This document shows, in pieces, positions 45,772-53,606 of a stretch of DNA of 64,000 bases. Within the stretch, counting starts at the first letter, position 1; each line of letters opens with the position of its first letter. The notes beneath the pieces are model-generated. The model was not told where the DNA came from. It was given only the letters and a program-made list of their open reading frames with translations, and searched no databases. The position numbers were made by a program, and so were the translations under genes. This stretch comes from Pseudomonadota bacterium (GTDB lineage Bacteria > Desulfobacterota > Desulfovibrionia > Desulfovibrionales > Desulfomicrobiaceae): the NCBI GenBank assembly GCA_018902545.1, contig JAHIQM010000006.1, forward strand, positions 62,001 to 126,000, given 5' to 3'.

Positions 45772-46650
45772 TCAGATCAGGCCCTTGGCGGCCAGAAACT
45801 TCTGCAGTGCTTCGGCGTTGGCCGGACCAAGCGGGGTCAGGGGCAGGCGCATCTCAAGCTTGATGCGGCCCATGAGGGAGAGAGCCGTCTTGACCGGGAT
45901 GGGGTTGGTTTCGACAAACATCATGCGCGAAAACGCGGCCAGGAAGAAGTGCAGCTCCTGCGCCTTGGGCAGATCTCCCTCGAACCAGGCCGAGCAAAGG
46001 CCGCTCATCTTGTCAGGCAGGATGTTGGAGACCACGGAGATGACCCCGCAGCCGCCCACGGACAGAAGCGGCAGCACCGTGAAGTCATCCCCGGACAGGA
46101 CCTGAAAATCCGGCCCGCAGTATTCGAGCACCTGGGAAACCTGGGTCAGGTCTCCGGTGGCCTCCTTGATGCCGATGACGTCCGGGATGTCCTTGTTCAG
46201 CCTGGCCACCGTGGCCGGAAGCAGGTTGACGCTGGTGCGGCCAGGCACGTTGTAGACGATGAAGGGCATGGACACTTCGGAGGCGATGCGCTTGAAGTGC
46301 TGGTAGAGGCCTTCCTGGGTCGGCTTGTTGTAGTAGGGCGTGATGAGCAGCGCCCCGTCTGCCCCGGCTTCCTTGGCGAAGCGGGTCAGTTCCACCGCCT
46401 CGGCCGTGTTGTTTGACCCGGCCCCGGCCAGAACCGGCACCCTGCCCTTGACCTGGTCCACGCAAATCCGGATCACCCGTTTGTGTTCGTCGTGGCTCAT
46501 GGTCGCGGATTCTCCGGTGGTGCCGCAGGGCACGACGCCGTTGATCCCGCTTTGAATCTGCCATTCGATCAGTTCTCGATAGGCTTTTTCGTCAAGCTGG
46601 CCGTTTGAAAACGGGGTGACCAGGGCTGTGAACGCTCCTTTGAATTGCAT
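45772..46650 (-). CDS. dapA: 4-hydroxy-tetrahydrodipicolinate synthase
   Basis: 292 residues, normal length. '[18 protein letters not shown]', '[20 protein letters not shown]' with the catalytic Tyr, '[12 protein letters not shown]' with the Arg for the substrate, and the Schiff-base Lys in '[11 protein letters not shown]'. It condenses pyruvate with aspartate semialdehyde in lysine and diaminopimelate synthesis. It is the last gene of the leftward operon, 50 nt after dapF. Confidence 0.95.
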
Positions 46651-46700: not shown

Positions 46701-47540
46701 CTAAAGGCCCAGGGCGGATGGGCAGAACTCGCCCTGGTAGACGAGCTGGGCCTTGCCGCGCAGGAAAATATCCGTGCCGTGAACGCCGATCTCAAGCACC
46801 TCGCCACCCGAGGTGGTCACCCTGGCCCTGGGTTCGCAAAGACCAAGGGCGTGGGCCACGGCCACGGAGGCCGCAGCGCCCGTGCCGCAGGCATAGGTCT
46901 CGTTCTCCACGCCGCGCTCGTAGGTGCGCAGCAGAAGTTCGCTCCGGCTTACGACCTGGATGAAATTGGCGTTGGTGCCAGCCGGGGCGAAATGCGCGTG
47001 ATAGCGGACCTTGGCCCCGAGATCCTTGATATCGAGGGCCTTGACGTCTGCGGAGACGATGACCGCATGTGGCACGCCGGTGTTGGCGAAATGGGCCGTG
47101 AAGTTTTCGCCGCCAAGATCAAGGGAAAAGTTCAGGGTCAGGTCCCTGGCCGGGGTCAACTGCACTTCGACCTCGCCTGCATCACGGAAGACGCGGGCGT
47201 GGACCTTGCCTGCGTCCGTGAGCATGAGATGCTCCGCCGGGGCCATGCCGAGCATGTGGGCCAGCAGGGTAGCGCAGCGTGAGCCGTTGCCGCACATCTC
47301 GGCCCGGGAGCCATCGGCGTTGAAGAAGTGCCAGCGTGTAGCGGCCTGCCCGGAATCATCGGATTCCAGAAAGATGATGCCGTCAGCGCCGATGCTGAAG
47401 GCATGGGGGCACAAGGTTTTGGCCCAGTTATGCATATCGGCGGGGGATATGGTCTTGGCGCTGTTGTCGATAACGATGAAATCGTTGCCGCTGCCTTGCA
47501 TTTTGTAAAATGGCTGGGTCGGTGCGCTGAAAATGGACAT
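46701..47540 (-). CDS. dapF: Diaminopimelate epimerase
   Basis: 279 residues from the ATG at 47540 (AGGAAC upstream; the frame is open further, but the N-terminus '[15 protein letters not shown]' fixes the start). The two catalytic cysteines lie in 'EMCGNGSRC' and 'YACGTGAAA'. It converts LL- to meso-diaminopimelate. It is co-transcribed with dapA. Confidence 0.95.
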
Positions 47541-47611: not shown

Positions 47612-48469
47612 CTAAGGATTGAAGATGGCGTTTATTTCCGGGTCCGAGGGCACGCCTCCTCCCATGGACATGGCTTCCGTGAAAATGGAAACCTGCGGCT
47701 CCCACACGGTTTTTTGTCCGGGCGCGGGCAGTTCGGGAATGGTCACCTTGTTCACGCTCCTGCCCTTGGTGAAGGGCCGCGCCCACAGCAGTCGACCCTC
47801 GCGCATGTAGAGGCCCGTATACCCGGGGCCTGGTCCCGAGCCGAGGATGATGTCGAACGCGTCCCCGCTGCGGTCGATGAAATCATTCTCCCGGTTTCCG
47901 CCCCAGGTGCTGACCCCAATGATCAGATTGTACTTGCCTTCACTGCGCAGTGACTCGGCGAGGCGGGCGACCTCTTTTTCCATGTCAGGGTCATGCTGGC
48001 CGCTGTCGGGGAAGAGGATAAAGGCGAGGCTGCCGCCCGGCACGTCCCGGACGAGCAGTTGCGGCTTGGTGAACGGACCGCTCCAGGTCGGGCCCGCGTC
48101 CATGCCCGCGTGCGAGAACACCAGCGCATCGGCCGGGGACATGAGGGCGATGTCGTACCCCAGCAGATCGTAGGCCCTCTTCAGGTTGCCGATGACGGAA
48201 GGGTGCCTGTCCGTCTCCAGGCCGAAGGGGGAGAGCTCGTATCCGCCGCTGACAATGATGATGTCCGCATTCTCGCGTGCGGTTTTGAAAAGGGTGGCCC
48301 GCCGGGCCAACCCGCCATAAGTTTTACTCCCTCAGCTGGGGCAGGGGTTGAACTCCCCGAGGCTGTTGCCGGTGAAGAGGATGGTCGTTTCAGCACTGGC
48401 ACGGGGGGCCGGGCAGAGAAGCAGGACCAGAAGAATCCAAATGGCGCGTCTAAGAAGTGTCAGTTTCAC
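47612..48469 (-). CDS. UshA-like secreted metallophosphoesterase-family protein, probable selenoprotein (UGA = Sec at codon 46)
   Basis: Read from GTG 48469 (GAGG 5 nt upstream, 7 nt after the MinD-like stop) the gene is 286 codons in one frame with a single internal UGA at 48334-48332. The N-terminus is a signal peptide ('LTLLRRAIWILLVLLLCPAP', cleavage after 'RASA'), then 'TTILFTGNSLGEFNPCPS', UGA, 'GSKTYGGLARRATLF'. Relatives, as I recall them, carry CPxCG at this spot, so UGA replaces the second Cys of a CxxC. Both sides of the UGA continue the same domain. The C-terminal part ('ADIIIVSGGYEL', 'DIALMSPADALVF') fits a divergent 5'-nucleotidase/UshA N-domain with poor metal ligands. A short 232-residue version from TTG 48310 would lack the export signal. 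Selenocysteine is inferred; a nonsense mutation is the alternative. Confidence 0.75.
48292..48313 (-). promoter_or_regulatory. Candidate bacterial SECIS element
   Basis: On the minus strand, 18 nt after the UGA, GGG-U-TGGCCC-GGC-GGGCCA-CCC forms a hairpin: 6-bp upper stem, 3-nt loop starting with G, one bulged U, and a 3-bp lower stem. This matches the known bacterial SECIS layout of a short stem-loop about 16-37 nt after UGA with a G at the start of the apical loop. It lies within the coding sequence, as bacterial SECIS elements do. Confidence 0.7.
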
Positions 48470-48476
48470 GAAGACC

Positions 48477-49283
48477 TCAGATCAGGGGTTTGAGAATGGG
48501 GCTGCGGGCGATGAGATCCTTGAGCCTGGTCCGGCGTTCGAGGATTTTTTTCGCAATCTCGCGGATGTCCTGCGCGGCTTGGCAGTTCGGCGCGAATTTG
48601 AGCAGCGGGACCTGATGACGCACGGATTCCGTGACCATGGGGTCCCGGGCTACCGTGCCGAGCAGGCTGATGGGCAGATTCAGGAAACGCTCACAGGCCT
48701 GGGCCAGACGGGTGAAGGCGTTTTTCGCCTCCTTCTCCGAGTCGGCCATGTTGACGATGACCTGGAAATTCTTGATCTGACGCTGGGTGAAGAGCACCTT
48801 GATCAGGGCGTAGCTGTCGGTCAGGGACGTGGGTTCGGGGGTGATGACCACGATCCGCTCCTGGGGCATGGCCGCAAAAGACAGCACCGTGGGGCTGATC
48901 CCGGCGCCAAGGTCGAGGACCAGAAAATCGTATTGCCGGAACAGGGTGTCGAGTTTGCCCAGCAGCAGGCCCTGTACCTCTTCGTCCATCTCCACCAGTT
49001 CGGCCACGCCGGAAGCGGATGGCAAGAGAACGAAGCCTTCTCCGGCCAGTGGAATGACCACGTTCTCGGCGGTGGCGTCTCCGATGAGATCCTGCAGGTT
49101 TTTTTCCGGGGACAGGCCCAGGAGCACGTCCAGATTGGCCAGCCCCAGGTCTGCGTCGAGCAGGATCAGGGAGCTGCCAAGCTCATGCAGGGCGAAGCAC
49201 AGGTTCAGGGCGAGGTTTGTCTTGCCCACGCCGCCTTTGCCGCTGGCGATGGCGATGCTGAGTGTCGTGTTGGCTTCGGTCAT
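48477..49283 (-). CDS. MinD/FlhG-like P-loop ATPase
   Basis: 268 residues. Deviant Walker A 'ASGKGGVGKTNLALNLCFAL', 'LLDADLGLANLDVLLGL' and Walker B-like 'YDFLVLDLGAGIS' match the MinD/ParA class, closest to FlhG/YlxH types ('PEKNLQDLI'). Such ATPases position flagella, division sites or other cell-pole structures. No flagellar gene lies nearby. It is separated by 1 nt from the upstream diguanylate cyclase gene. Confidence 0.88.
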   Translation of the reverse strand: MTEANTTLSIAIASGKGGVGKTNLALNLCFALHELGSSLILLDADLGLANLDVLLGLSPEKNLQDLIGDATAENVVIPLAGEGFVLLPSASGVAELVEMDEEVQGLLLGKLDTLFRQYDFLVLDLGAGISPTVLSFAAMPQERIVVITPEPTSLTDSYALIKVLFTQRQIKNFQVIVNMADSEKEAKNAFTRLAQACERFLNLPISLLGTVARDPMVTESVRHQVPLLKFAPNCQAAQDIREIAKKILERRTRLKDLIARSPILKPLI

Positions 49284-49284
49284 G

Positions 49285-50139
49285 TCAGTCCTTGTTCTGC
49301 TCCGTGCTCAAAGACGCATCGGAGAATGAGGAAAAAAGAAAGCGTTTTTCGTTATGGTGCACCAGTGACAGCTCCTCTCCATGGGGGAGGTCCAGGATGG
49401 GCGAGGTCTCGATCCTGTTTTTTCCGTTCTGCTTGGCGCGGTACAAGGCCTTGTCCGCCTCGGCCATCAGCTTGGCCGGGTCAGGGGTCAGTTTGCCCCG
49501 ATAGCTCGCCACACCCATGGACATGGTCATGCTGAGTCGTGCGTCGCCACAGGTGATTCTGGTTGTCTGAATGATCGACTGGATGCGCTGCAGGAGCATC
49601 AAGGCCCGAGCCTGCCCTGTGCCGGGCAGCAGCAAGACGAACTCCTCGCCTCCGATGCGCGCCGCCGTGTCAATCATTCTCATTTCGTTTAGCAAGATTG
49701 ACGCCATGGCTTTGATGACATTGTCTCCACAGGCGTGCCCGTAGGTGTCGTTGACGGCCTTGAAGTTGTCCAGATCCATGATGCACAACGTCAGCGGTGT
49801 CTTGAAGCGCGAGGAGCGTTCGACCTCCATGGCCATGGTCTGGTCAAATCCCCGGCGGTTGGCCAGACCGGTCAATGAATCCTGACCTTGCAAAACGTGC
49901 AGGTGCTCAATGTGCTCCTTGAGTCTCACCAGCGCCGGGAATTTGTCGCCGTGCAGGGGTACAACGACCCAGTGTCCCAAATTTTTTTGTCGCAGCCGTT
50001 CGGGCCAGGACGGATCGGAGCGGATCAATCGAACCAGGGCCGCCACCCCGGAGATGACCGGGGAAAGCCTCAATTCCTGTTCCAGGATCTCGAGTTCGTC
50101 CAGCAGGGTCTCGTCAGGAGGGAGGTTACGATTTTCCAT
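49285..50139 (-). CDS. GGDEF diguanylate cyclase
   Basis: 284 residues from the ATG at 50139, which overlaps the end of prfB by 14 nt. The C-terminal GGDEF domain has 'DSLTGLANRRGFDQTMAMEVER', 'MDLDNFKAVNDTYGHACGD' and the active-site 'RIGGEEFVLLLPG'. The N-terminal ~100 residues have no named domain. The predicted soluble enzyme makes cyclic di-GMP from GTP. An RxxD inhibitory site is not obvious. It could be read together with the neighbouring MinD-like ATPase. Confidence 0.9.
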   Translation of the reverse strand: MENRNLPPDETLLDELEILEQELRLSPVISGVAALVRLIRSDPSWPERLRQKNLGHWVVVPLHGDKFPALVRLKEHIEHLHVLQGQDSLTGLANRRGFDQTMAMEVERSSRFKTPLTLCIMDLDNFKAVNDTYGHACGDNVIKAMASILLNEMRMIDTAARIGGEEFVLLLPGTGQARALMLLQRIQSIIQTTRITCGDARLSMTMSMGVASYRGKLTPDPAKLMAEADKALYRAKQNGKNRIETSPILDLPHGEELSLVHHNEKRFLFSSFSDASLSTEQNKD

Positions 50140-51236
50140 GCAGGTACAGGAGGTAGTTGTGGATGAATGCGTCGATGTTGCCGTCGAGCACTGAGTCCAC
50201 ATTGCTGGTTTCCGTGCCGGTGCGGTGATCCTTGACCAGGCGGTACGGCTGCAGGGTGTAGGTCCGGATCTGCGATCCGAAGGCTATCGCCCCCTTGGCC
50301 ACATATTCGGCCTGCCGCTCGCTGGCGATCTTCTGCAGTTCAAGTTCATAGAGGCGGGCTTTAAGCACCTTCATGGCCGCTTCCTTGTTCTTGTGCTGTG
50401 ATTTTTCGTTCTGGCACTGGGCCACCAGACCGGTTGGGATGTGCGTGATGCGTACCGCCGAGTCTGTGGTGTTTACCGACTGCCCACCGGGGCCGCTGGA
50501 GCGGAAAATGTCGACCCGGATGTCTTCATCCCGAACCTCGATTTCGATGTCCTCGCCTGCGTCGGGGTAGATATCGACGGAAGCGAAGGAGGTGTGTCGC
50601 CGCCCGCTGGAGTCGAAGGGAGATATGCGGATCAGGCGGTGCGTTCCCTTTTCGCCCTTGAGTTGCCCGTAGGCGTAGGGGCCGTGGATGTGCAGGGTCA
50701 CGCTTTTCACCCCGGCCTCGTCGCCAGGGAGGAGGTCCAGCAGTTCGACCTTGAAGCCCGTGCGTTCAGCGAAGCGGCGGTACATGCGCAGGAGCATCTC
50801 GGCCCAGTCCTGGGACTCGGTTCCCCCGGCTCCGGGATGGATTTCTAGGATGGCCTCGCTTATGTCCTCGGGGTCGCTCAGCAGGGTGCGCATCTGGGCG
50901 GCCTCCAGTTTGGCGCTCAGCTCCTCCAGGGATTCTTTCAGAGCCTGCAGCATTTCCTCGGTCTGCTCGGTGGCGGCCATCTCGACCCACTCCAGGGCGT
51001 TGTCCCTGGCGAGGGCAAGGGCCTCCCATTCTTCAACCTGACTCGCGACCTGGGTCTTTTCCTGCAATACCGGGGTCAGCAGGTCGGGTTTGTCCCACGC
51101 TCCGGGCGCGGAGAGCTGCTTCTCGATTTCATTGAGACGTTCCCTGTGCCGGCGCAGGTCAAAGTCGCCTCCAGAAGTCGGAGAAACGTTCGTCGAGGTG
51201 CGCGGCCCTGGCCTTTAATTCTGAATATTGCAGCAT
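50126..51236 (-). CDS. prfB: Peptide chain release factor 2 with programmed +1 frameshift
   Basis: The gene starts at ATG 51236 ('MLQYSELKARAAHLDERFSD'), reads 25 codons to CUU, meets an in-frame UGA at 51161-51159, and continues in the +1 frame (DLRRHRERLNEIEKQL...) to 50126, giving 369 residues. Codon recognition 'SPF' ('IRISPFDSSGRR') and the catalytic 'GPGGQSVNTTDS' are present. RF2 ends translation at UGA and UAA. The frameshift makes its synthesis fall when RF2 is plentiful. It follows lnt by 11 nt. Confidence 0.95.
51159..51177 (-). promoter_or_regulatory. prfB programmed frameshift site
   Basis: Minus strand: TGGAGG-CGA-CTT-TGA-C. The slippery CUU codon is followed by UGA-C (a poor stop context), and an internal Shine-Dalgarno-like GGAGG lies just upstream, as in E. 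coli prfB. UGA is codon 26, also as in E. coli. Confidence 0.93.
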
Positions 51237-51247
51237 GATGTATCCGG

Positions 51248-52813
51248 TTATGTATGATTTTTCCGGCCATTTCTCCAGAGAGTCCCCAGCAGGGCGACAG
51301 CCAGGATGGGAAAGGCCGCGTGAATGAAGTAAAAATGTTCGTGGTAAAAGGTCGTCTCTGTCAAGAGTTCTATGGCCGGATCATGGGCGATTTCGGCGAC
51401 GAAAAGGGGTGTTTTTCCCCGCAGGCTGCCGTCGGGAGCGATAAAGGCGCTTATGCCGGAGTTGGTCGCGCGGATGATGGACCGGTTCTGTTCCACGGCG
51501 CGCAGGATGGAGAGGTGCAGATGCTGCAAGGGTGCCGACGACCGGCCAAACCACGCGTCGTTGCTGATGTTGACCAGCACGTTTGCCCCAAGCTTCACCT
51601 GTTTCTGGGCCAGTTCGGGAAAGATGGCTTCATAGCAGATCAAGAGGCCCATGGCCAGGCTGCCCGTTTTGAGCGGCGCGGCGTTGCGGCCGGGACGGAA
51701 TTCGAACTGTCCGGGGACCAACTTGGTGATGAACGGCAGCCACTGTCCCAGGGGCACGTATTCGCCAAAGGGGACGAGGTGCTCCTTGTCGTACCAGGAC
51801 AGGGTTTCGCCCGCCCCGCCCAGCAGATAGGCGCGGTTGTGCAGGACGTACTGGGGCGCGCCCGGTTCCATGGGGGCGGAATAGGCCGGGGCTCCGGCAA
51901 GGACCGGGATCCCGAGGCGCGCCACGCCCAGGCGCATTCCTGTGGTCAGGTCGGAGGGGTCCTGGAAATAGAAGGGCATGGCTGTTTCCGGCCAGATGAG
52001 GATCTCCGGGGCGTTTTTGTCCACGGCCTTGAAAGAGAGGTCCAGATAGGCAGCCAGGATTTCCGACTGCATGGCCTCGTCCCATTTGAGGCTCTGGTCG
52101 ATGTTGCCCTGGATCATGGAGACCGAAGCCGTGGCTGCGGGAGCGCGGGGTTCGCGCATCAGGGCGGGGAGCAGACACAAGAGGATCAGGGCCGGGGCAA
52201 CGGCGCGGGTCCATCCCCGTCCCGCAAGCAGGCTGTGGCTCAGACTCACCAGCACTGCGGACAGGCCGAAGCCTCCGATCCAGGCGGCCAGTCCCAGGGT
52301 CTGCGGCCACGGAGCCATGGATTGGGCCAGGGTCAGCCAGGAGAAACCGGTCAGAAAATGATTGCGGGCCAGTTCCAGACTGGCCCACAACAGGCCCGTG
52401 GCGAGCATGGCCAGAGGATGGGCGGATCTGGATCTGATCAAATGCACGCCCATGCAAAAAAGGCCCGCATAGGCGGCGAGCAGGGCGCCGACCAGAACCG
52501 GGCAGGGCAGAGCCAGGGCCCAGGGCAGCCCGCCGTGATCATGGACCGGGATGGCCAGCCAATAGAGGCTCGCGGCATAACCAGGCAGGGCGGTTAGAAA
52601 GCCGCTGCGAAAGGCGTGGGTGAGACTTGTGGCCCGCAGCGACGTCAGGATGAGCGCTGCGGGCAGGAGCAGGATCGCGGGCGGAAAATGCAGCAGCGGG
52701 TTGGCAAAGCCGAACCAGGCCCCAACGAGGGCCATGCCCATGGGGCCAAGGAGGCGCACGAGCGCGTCAGGATGTTGGCTTTGAGATGATAACCCACTGG
52801 ATTTGTTTGACAT
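51248..52813 (-). CDS. lnt: Apolipoprotein N-acyltransferase
   Basis: 521 residues from the ATG at 52813 (AGGAAG ribosome site). Multiple N-terminal membrane helices precede a nitrilase-fold domain with the catalytic Glu in 'ILIWPETAMPF', Lys in 'WYDKEHLVPFGEYVP' and Cys in 'GLLICYEAIFPE'. It adds the N-terminal acyl chain to outer-membrane lipoproteins. It overlaps the corC-like gene by 47 nt, the usual corC-lnt arrangement. Confidence 0.94.
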   Translation of the reverse strand: MSNKSSGLSSQSQHPDALVRLLGPMGMALVGAWFGFANPLLHFPPAILLLPAALILTSLRATSLTHAFRSGFLTALPGYAASLYWLAIPVHDHGGLPWALALPCPVLVGALLAAYAGLFCMGVHLIRSRSAHPLAMLATGLLWASLELARNHFLTGFSWLTLAQSMAPWPQTLGLAAWIGGFGLSAVLVSLSHSLLAGRGWTRAVAPALILLCLLPALMREPRAPAATASVSMIQGNIDQSLKWDEAMQSEILAAYLDLSFKAVDKNAPEILIWPETAMPFYFQDPSDLTTGMRLGVARLGIPVLAGAPAYSAPMEPGAPQYVLHNRAYLLGGAGETLSWYDKEHLVPFGEYVPLGQWLPFITKLVPGQFEFRPGRNAAPLKTGSLAMGLLICYEAIFPELAQKQVKLGANVLVNISNDAWFGRSSAPLQHLHLSILRAVEQNRSIIRATNSGISAFIAPDGSLRGKTPLFVAEIAHDPAIELLTETTFYHEHFYFIHAAFPILAVALLGTLWRNGRKNHT

Positions 52814-53606
52814 CTGCTTCCTTGATAAGAAACGTGTAGCCCTGCAAGTCCAGGGATTCGTCGGTCTCCGGGACGCGGCCGAGTTGTTCGCTGATGTAGC
52901 CGCCCACGGTTTCGACCTGTTCGGATTCAAGTTCGATGCCGCATTCCTCATGCAGGTCGTCGAGGATGGTTCGCCCGGAGACGAGGAAGGTGCTCTCGTC
53001 GATGGGCTGAATCTCCTCGGGACGGATGGGGTCGTATTCGTCCTCAATGTCGCCGACGATCTCTTCCAGAACGTCCTCCAGGGTCACCAGGCCAGCAGTT
53101 CCGCCGTATTCGTCAAGGACGATGGCCATGTGCTGCTTGTTGGTCTGAAAATCAAGCAGGATGTTTTTGACGTTCTTGGTTTCGGGAATGAAATAGGGTG
53201 GCCGCAGCACGGAAGCTAGTTCCGCCGGGGCCTCTTCGTCGCCGACAAAAAAGCGCAGCAGCTCCTTGCAGTGCAGGACGCCGACGATCTGATCCTTGGT
53301 TTCTTTGTAGATGGGCAGGCGCGAGTGTCCGCTTTCAAAGAATTTTCTGGCGACATCGGTGATGGTTTCGTCGATCTCGGCGCAGACGATGTCCGTGCGC
53401 GGGATCATGATTTCGTATGCCTGCTTGTCATCAAGCTGCAGGACGTTCAAAAGCATGGACATTTCGTCGTTCTGCAGTTCTCCGCCGTCTTTGGCCTCTT
53501 GGATGGCTTCTTCCAGATGGCATTCGCCCTTGCGGGAAAAAAAGCGTCGCAGTGTAATCCAGAGTCGACTGTCAGGGCCCTCATCCATAAATACGTTGTC
53601 CTCCAT
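52767..53606 (-). CDS. CorC/HlyC-type CBS-domain protein
   Basis: 279 residues. An N-terminal helical part, two CBS domains ('VMIPRTDIVCAEIDET'-like 'YEIMIPRTDIV', 'HSRLPIYKETKDQIVGVLHCKELL', 'HMAIVLDEYGGTAGLVTLEDVLEEIVGDIEDE') and a C-terminal transporter-associated (CorC_HlyC) domain ('GRTILDDLHEECG'). It lacks the membrane DUF21 domain. The soluble type is linked to magnesium or cobalt efflux and is typically found beside lnt. Confidence 0.9.
   Translation of the reverse strand: MEDNVFMDEGPDSRLWITLRRFFSRKGECHLEEAIQEAKDGGELQNDEMSMLLNVLQLDDKQAYEIMIPRTDIVCAEIDETITDVARKFFESGHSRLPIYKETKDQIVGVLHCKELLRFFVGDEEAPAELASVLRPPYFIPETKNVKNILLDFQTNKQHMAIVLDEYGGTAGLVTLEDVLEEIVGDIEDEYDPIRPEEIQPIDESTFLVSGRTILDDLHEECGIELESEQVETVGGYISEQLGRVPETDESLDLQGYTFLIKEADVKQIQWVIISKPTS

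Follow-up and report, generated by a model that had tools for sequence, protein, structure and literature searches.

UshA-like selenoproteins carrying a CxU motif have been known at least since an ocean survey of 2008 (PMC2398784), and a further family, NCBIfam NF049981 ("UshA-like (seleno)protein family 2"), is already listed among the selenoproteins, with the motif CxxU and the example WP_420705249.1, in a 2026 review (PMC13188914) whose table gives no function for it. No functional description of the NF049981 family was found in the papers searched. Selenoproteins are often mis-annotated, the UGA being taken as a stop, and here we describe a well-supported case in a stretch of 64,000 nucleotides from a Desulfomicrobiaceae genome (the window).

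The gene occupies positions 47612..48469 of the window on the minus strand and comprises 286 codons with the stop, running from GTG at 48469 to TAG at 47612 with a single interruption, a TGA at 48334-48332 (codon 46). A Shine-Dalgarno-like GAGGT lies about 6 nt ahead of the GTG, and a scan for promoters and terminators returned no more of them than expected by chance. Translation through the UGA would give a Sec-type signal peptide (MKLTLLRRAIWILLVLLLCPAPRASA; 48392..48469, minus strand; probable cleavage after ASA26, read from the sequence by eye), the stretch ILFTGNSLGEFNPCPSUGSKTYGGLARRAT and then 226 further residues. The UGA (48332..48334, minus strand) falls within ...NPC43-P-S-U46-GSKTYGGLARRAT, in which Cys43, the first residue of the CPSU motif, is encoded at 48341..48343 (minus strand), and C43 and U46 are the sole Cys/Sec residues of the mature protein. 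Re-reading the frame bore out what the initial annotation had described, namely one UGA at a CPxC-like site in an otherwise open frame, a signal peptide ahead of it and a GGLARRAT stretch after it.

Searched with U read as Cys, the protein matched NF049981 at 3.8e-77 and 259.2 bits against a curated cut-off of 140 bits, over residues 29-283 and positions 2-261 of the 262 in the model, and it carries the CxxU motif of that family as C43-P-S-U46. The related model NF041198 (UshA-like (seleno)protein PCGU) matched weakly over residues 21-76 (32 bits, cut-off 275), and a Pfam search with the read-through protein gave no match, so the naming of the domain rests on NCBIfam and on the fold search. 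The protein is therefore a member of the catalogued NF049981 family, and as a kind of selenoprotein it is not new. The initial view of a hidden and unusual selenoprotein does not survive the earlier listing of its family (NF049981; PMC13188914).

An AlphaFold2 model of the protein (mean pLDDT 96, pTM 0.93) and a fold search (VIA; Z 24.9 to 3ivd, 24.6 to SoxB 2wdc and about 24 to CD73) revealed a metallophosphoesterase fold equal to the N-terminal catalytic domain of 5'-nucleotidases and SoxB, encoded at 47615..48394 (minus strand). The C-terminal nucleotidase domain is absent, the protein ending at residue 285 and the PDB chains matching over their N-terminal domain alone. Using a profile aligned to solved nucleotidases, we located the columns of the dinuclear metal ligands (DxH, D, N-H, H, HxH), which we take from general knowledge of UshA, at residues 35, 37, 77, 112/113, 188, 212 and 214. 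None of the ligands is present, the residues being 35 N, 37 L, 77 Y, 112 P, 113 A, 188 T, 212 G and 214 G. Among 77 aligned members of the family, these columns hold N35 in 74, mostly Y or F at 37, mostly an aromatic residue at 77, G212 in all 77 and G214 in 72, so that all seven UshA/SoxB ligands are replaced both here and in nearly all of the members. The usual metal site is gone, with other conserved residues occupying its place. Since the fold is kept but every metal ligand is lost, the alignment rules out a conventional metallophosphatase, and we read the protein as what remains of the catalytic domain without its metals, with a predicted Sec among its most conserved residues.

Directly upstream lies a gene for a MinD/ParA-like ATPase (48477..49283, minus strand; PF10609/PF01656 and MinD models, below the MinD equivalog cut-offs), whose stop is separated by a 7-nt gap from the GTG of the selenoprotein gene; judged by this spacing, the two are likely to be translationally coupled. 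A GGDEF diguanylate cyclase gene (49285..50202, minus strand) comes next and occupies the same place in the loci parsed, and an lnt-like gene (51248-53047, read from the sequence) stands further upstream, while dapF (46701..47540, minus strand; TIGR00652) and then dapA (45772-46650; TIGR00674) follow downstream. The order prfB - GGDEF - MinD/ParA-like - selenoprotein gene - (dapF) - dapA is conserved across Desulfovibrionales: of 39 loci from this order, 37-38 have the upstream neighbours again, on the same strand. Such conservation supports an old gene that was probably kept vertically and says little about function; the neighbours, mostly housekeeping genes, give no hint of a substrate or partner. 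The prfB gene (release factor 2, a UGA reader; 51236-51159, minus strand) itself has the classic programmed +1 frameshift site, CTT-TGA-C, with CTT at 51164-51162 and TGA at 51161-51159. The two UGA recoding sites, in prfB and in the selenoprotein gene, lie about 2.8 kb apart, probably by coincidence within a conserved cluster.

The source genome encodes the machinery for selenocysteine whose presence had been proposed as a check, with selA at 618 bits, selB at 361 bits, selD at 332 bits and a tRNA-Sec at 87 bits with the anticodon UCA (tca). Its selD (G000:C17:16043-16963) contains one in-frame TGA and probably encodes a selenoprotein too. An order-wide scan found the gene in 183 of 348 Desulfovibrionales genomes, making the NF049981 family a common one in this order, and among the matches listed nearly all have exactly one TGA. 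A DNA pattern spanning the UGA and the stem matched 39 contigs, which are assigned to Desulfovibrionales lineages or to unclassified proteobacterial MAGs. A phylum scan recovered wider relatives in 153 of 395 genomes, most with one TGA, and several genomes gave 3-6 matches. All 77 distinct aligned family-2 sequences have Sec or Cys at residue 46, with no other residue occurring there, and this position is one of just four invariant columns across 87 wider relatives; residue 43 is Cys in 76 of the 77. A position that swaps Sec with Cys and nothing else behaves as catalytic chalcogens usually do, and we would interpret residue 46 accordingly.

To relate the UGA to the machinery, we compared by hand the list of genomes with selA, which was detected in 276 of the 348 genomes of the order, with the list of genomes having the gene, and re-examined those with the gene but without selA. 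One genus (g278) has UGA in all three genomes that possess both selA and the gene and Cys in eight genomes without selA, and four other genomes without selA (G557, G556, G416 and G719) have Cys at position 46 as well. Genomes with UGA but no detected selA are mostly incomplete; three of them, drafts of 93-96% completeness (G449, G474 and G707), count against the selenocysteine reading unless, as we tentatively suppose, they reflect assembly gaps. A quick tree of 128 rows requires at least seven exchanges between Sec and Cys, at least four of them forced by well-supported branches, indicating that the exchange has been repeated. A tandem pair, the Cys form followed directly by the Sec form of the same gene, occurs at six loci of Solidesulfovibrio and relatives (L108, L109, L110, L111, L112 and L121), and the Cys copies of these pairs form one clade. 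A genus-mate of the source organism carries a second, divergent Sec copy (L083, G396:C9) outside the conserved gene order.

The putative SECIS hairpin (GGGUUGGCCCGGCGGGCCACCC; 48292..48313, minus strand; GGG-U-UGGCCC-GGC-GGGCCA-CCC) begins after 18 nt from the UGA and consists of a 6-bp core stem (48309-48304 with 48300-48295) extended by 3 bp, with a 3-nt loop, GGC (48303-48301), that starts with G and lies 28 nt past the UGA. Its minimum free energy is -15.0 kcal/mol for the 22 nt and -9.5 kcal/mol for the core. The bSECIS model demands a loop of 3-9 nt with G in the first two positions, a spacing of 16-37 nt, a stem of 4-16 bp and an MFE of -7.5 or lower (PMC13188914), and the hairpin that had been pointed out as SECIS-like agrees with it in every respect. 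Within one gene alone it is modest evidence: on synonymous re-coding with local codon usage, 17% of samples produced the 6-bp stem, while the complete -15 kcal/mol hairpin came up in 0.9%. Because the 61-nt window around it folded no better than shuffled sequences (z -0.25), single-gene folding was dropped as evidence and the comparison across genes used instead. All six stem pairs are kept in 64 of 67 Sec genes versus one of eight Cys genes (Fisher p 5e-7, relatedness ignored), and two of the three Sec genes off register (L100 and L101) fold a displaced hairpin whose loop starts with G. In the common register, 97.7% of pair cells are formed, compared with at most 54% after a shift of one to three bases. 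At the two Arg positions inside the stem, 81% and 82% of Sec genes use CGG, a codon that makes up 22% of the Arg codons elsewhere in these genes. Strict covariation is weak, with one pair showing a double change and the variation being mostly from G-C to G-U, and for this reason we relied on pair retention and codon choice. Retention of the stem across genes is decisive in placing the predicted SECIS beyond chance.

The UGA might nevertheless be a real stop, or else an error of sequencing, in which case the 232-aa frame beyond it would be a gene of its own or a dead one. An ORF of 232 aa starting with TTG does exist downstream of the UGA, and the hairpin alone is not rare in one gene, as the re-coding showed; but the same UGA recurs in most of the 183 gene-bearing genomes of the order, which excludes a sequencing error, Cys takes its place in genomes where selA is missing, and the SECIS stem is conserved across Sec genes. 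On these comparative grounds the stop reading is already very unlikely, to the point of being hardly credible. The initial proposal that the UGA encodes selenocysteine therefore holds with strong comparative support, drawn from the sel genes, the restriction of position 46 to Sec and Cys, the SECIS comparison and the selA-linked distribution of UGA and Cys, and we regard the locus as a genuine selenoprotein gene.

With the phosphatase metal site wholly lost and Sec strictly retained, the gene poses a sharp question about selenol chemistry on a nucleotidase fold. We lean towards a periplasmic selenol oxidoreductase, built on a dead metallophosphatase domain and working through a C43-U46 selenenylsulfide, with Sec46 supplied by SelB and the hairpin. 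By binding the hairpin 28 nt past the UGA, SelB would deliver Sec-tRNA(UCA) and U46 would be inserted; U46 might then attack a substrate that sits in the former active-site cleft and is oxidised or carries sulfur, C43 would resolve the product as a C43-U46 selenenylsulfide, and an external thiol or cytochrome system could reduce this bond. Selenol chemistry is favoured because the protein has no metal site, an invariant Sec/Cys position, an exported domain and a CPxU motif, and a thiol or selenol role in the periplasm, which the initial annotation had hinted at, is plausible from these features.

One weakness of this reading lies in the pairing of the two residues. The first Cys is lost and Sec kept in three of 90 Sec sequences, whose motifs read PIKAU (L089:4004-4774), AVHSU (L046:1504-2208) and ADSGU (L044:1504-2358). 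These three relatives suggest that Sec alone can suffice and would speak against a compulsory C43-U46 pair, so the CxxU may not always act as one. Sec46 could accordingly be a lone nucleophile or a sulfur acceptor, in a SoxB-like transfer of sulfur or S-sulfonate onto the selenol with no selenenylsulfide to C43. The three exceptional motifs fit such a role, as do a SoxB fold match (Z 24.6) about equal to that of any nucleotidase, the scores of wider-family relatives on the SoxB model (L044 at 1.3e-31) and hosts belonging to the Desulfovibrionales, an order of sulfate reducers. We consider it unlikely, if far from negligible, given that 76 of 77 family-2 members have C43 and that SoxB hydrolysis needs a dinuclear metal site, which the window protein lacks. 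It is less probable still that Sec46 and Cys43 bind metal or serve a non-catalytic purpose, whether as a metal or selenium store or as an envelope sensor tied to the upstream ATPase and diguanylate cyclase. The conserved order with the GGDEF and MinD/ParA-like genes, the 7-nt gap and the absence of any remaining catalytic metal site would suit that explanation, but an exported protein and a cytoplasmic ATPase are in different compartments, and prfB and dapA share the cluster, so that gene order by itself is a poor guide to function. Returning to the selenol oxidoreductase, a formulation that leaves C43 optional would hold that the old phosphatase cleft of this metal-free 5'-nucleotidase/SoxB relic now works via one catalytic selenol, C43 being an optional resolver, and that the result is a periplasmic enzyme for redox or sulfur-transfer reactions, present in about half of the searched Desulfovibrionales genomes; to this we give a little less than even weight.

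Compared with the known systems, the window protein shares its fold with the SoxB thiosulfohydrolase (Z 24.6 to 2wdc) but is without the dinuclear metal site and the C-terminal domain and has an added selenol, the SoxB metal site being judged here by the nucleotidase-alignment columns; the SoxB sequence itself aligned over its middle part only. The 5'-nucleotidases UshA and CD73 likewise have the same catalytic-domain fold (Z 22-25), whereas the window protein lacks their C-terminal nucleotidase domain and has their metal ligands replaced. The PCGU proteins of NF041198 (COG0737 UshA-like; PMC2398784, PMC9312934) have a related N-terminal domain and a Cys-Sec motif before GGLAR[RK], but with CxU where the window protein has CxxU and with a model of 519 positions. 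With NF049981 family 2 (PMC13188914), the full-length match, the CPxU motif and the exported single domain of about 260 aa are all shared, and we see no essential difference; to what is recorded for that family, the present analysis adds the loss of the metal ligands, the conserved gene order and the switching between Sec and Cys.
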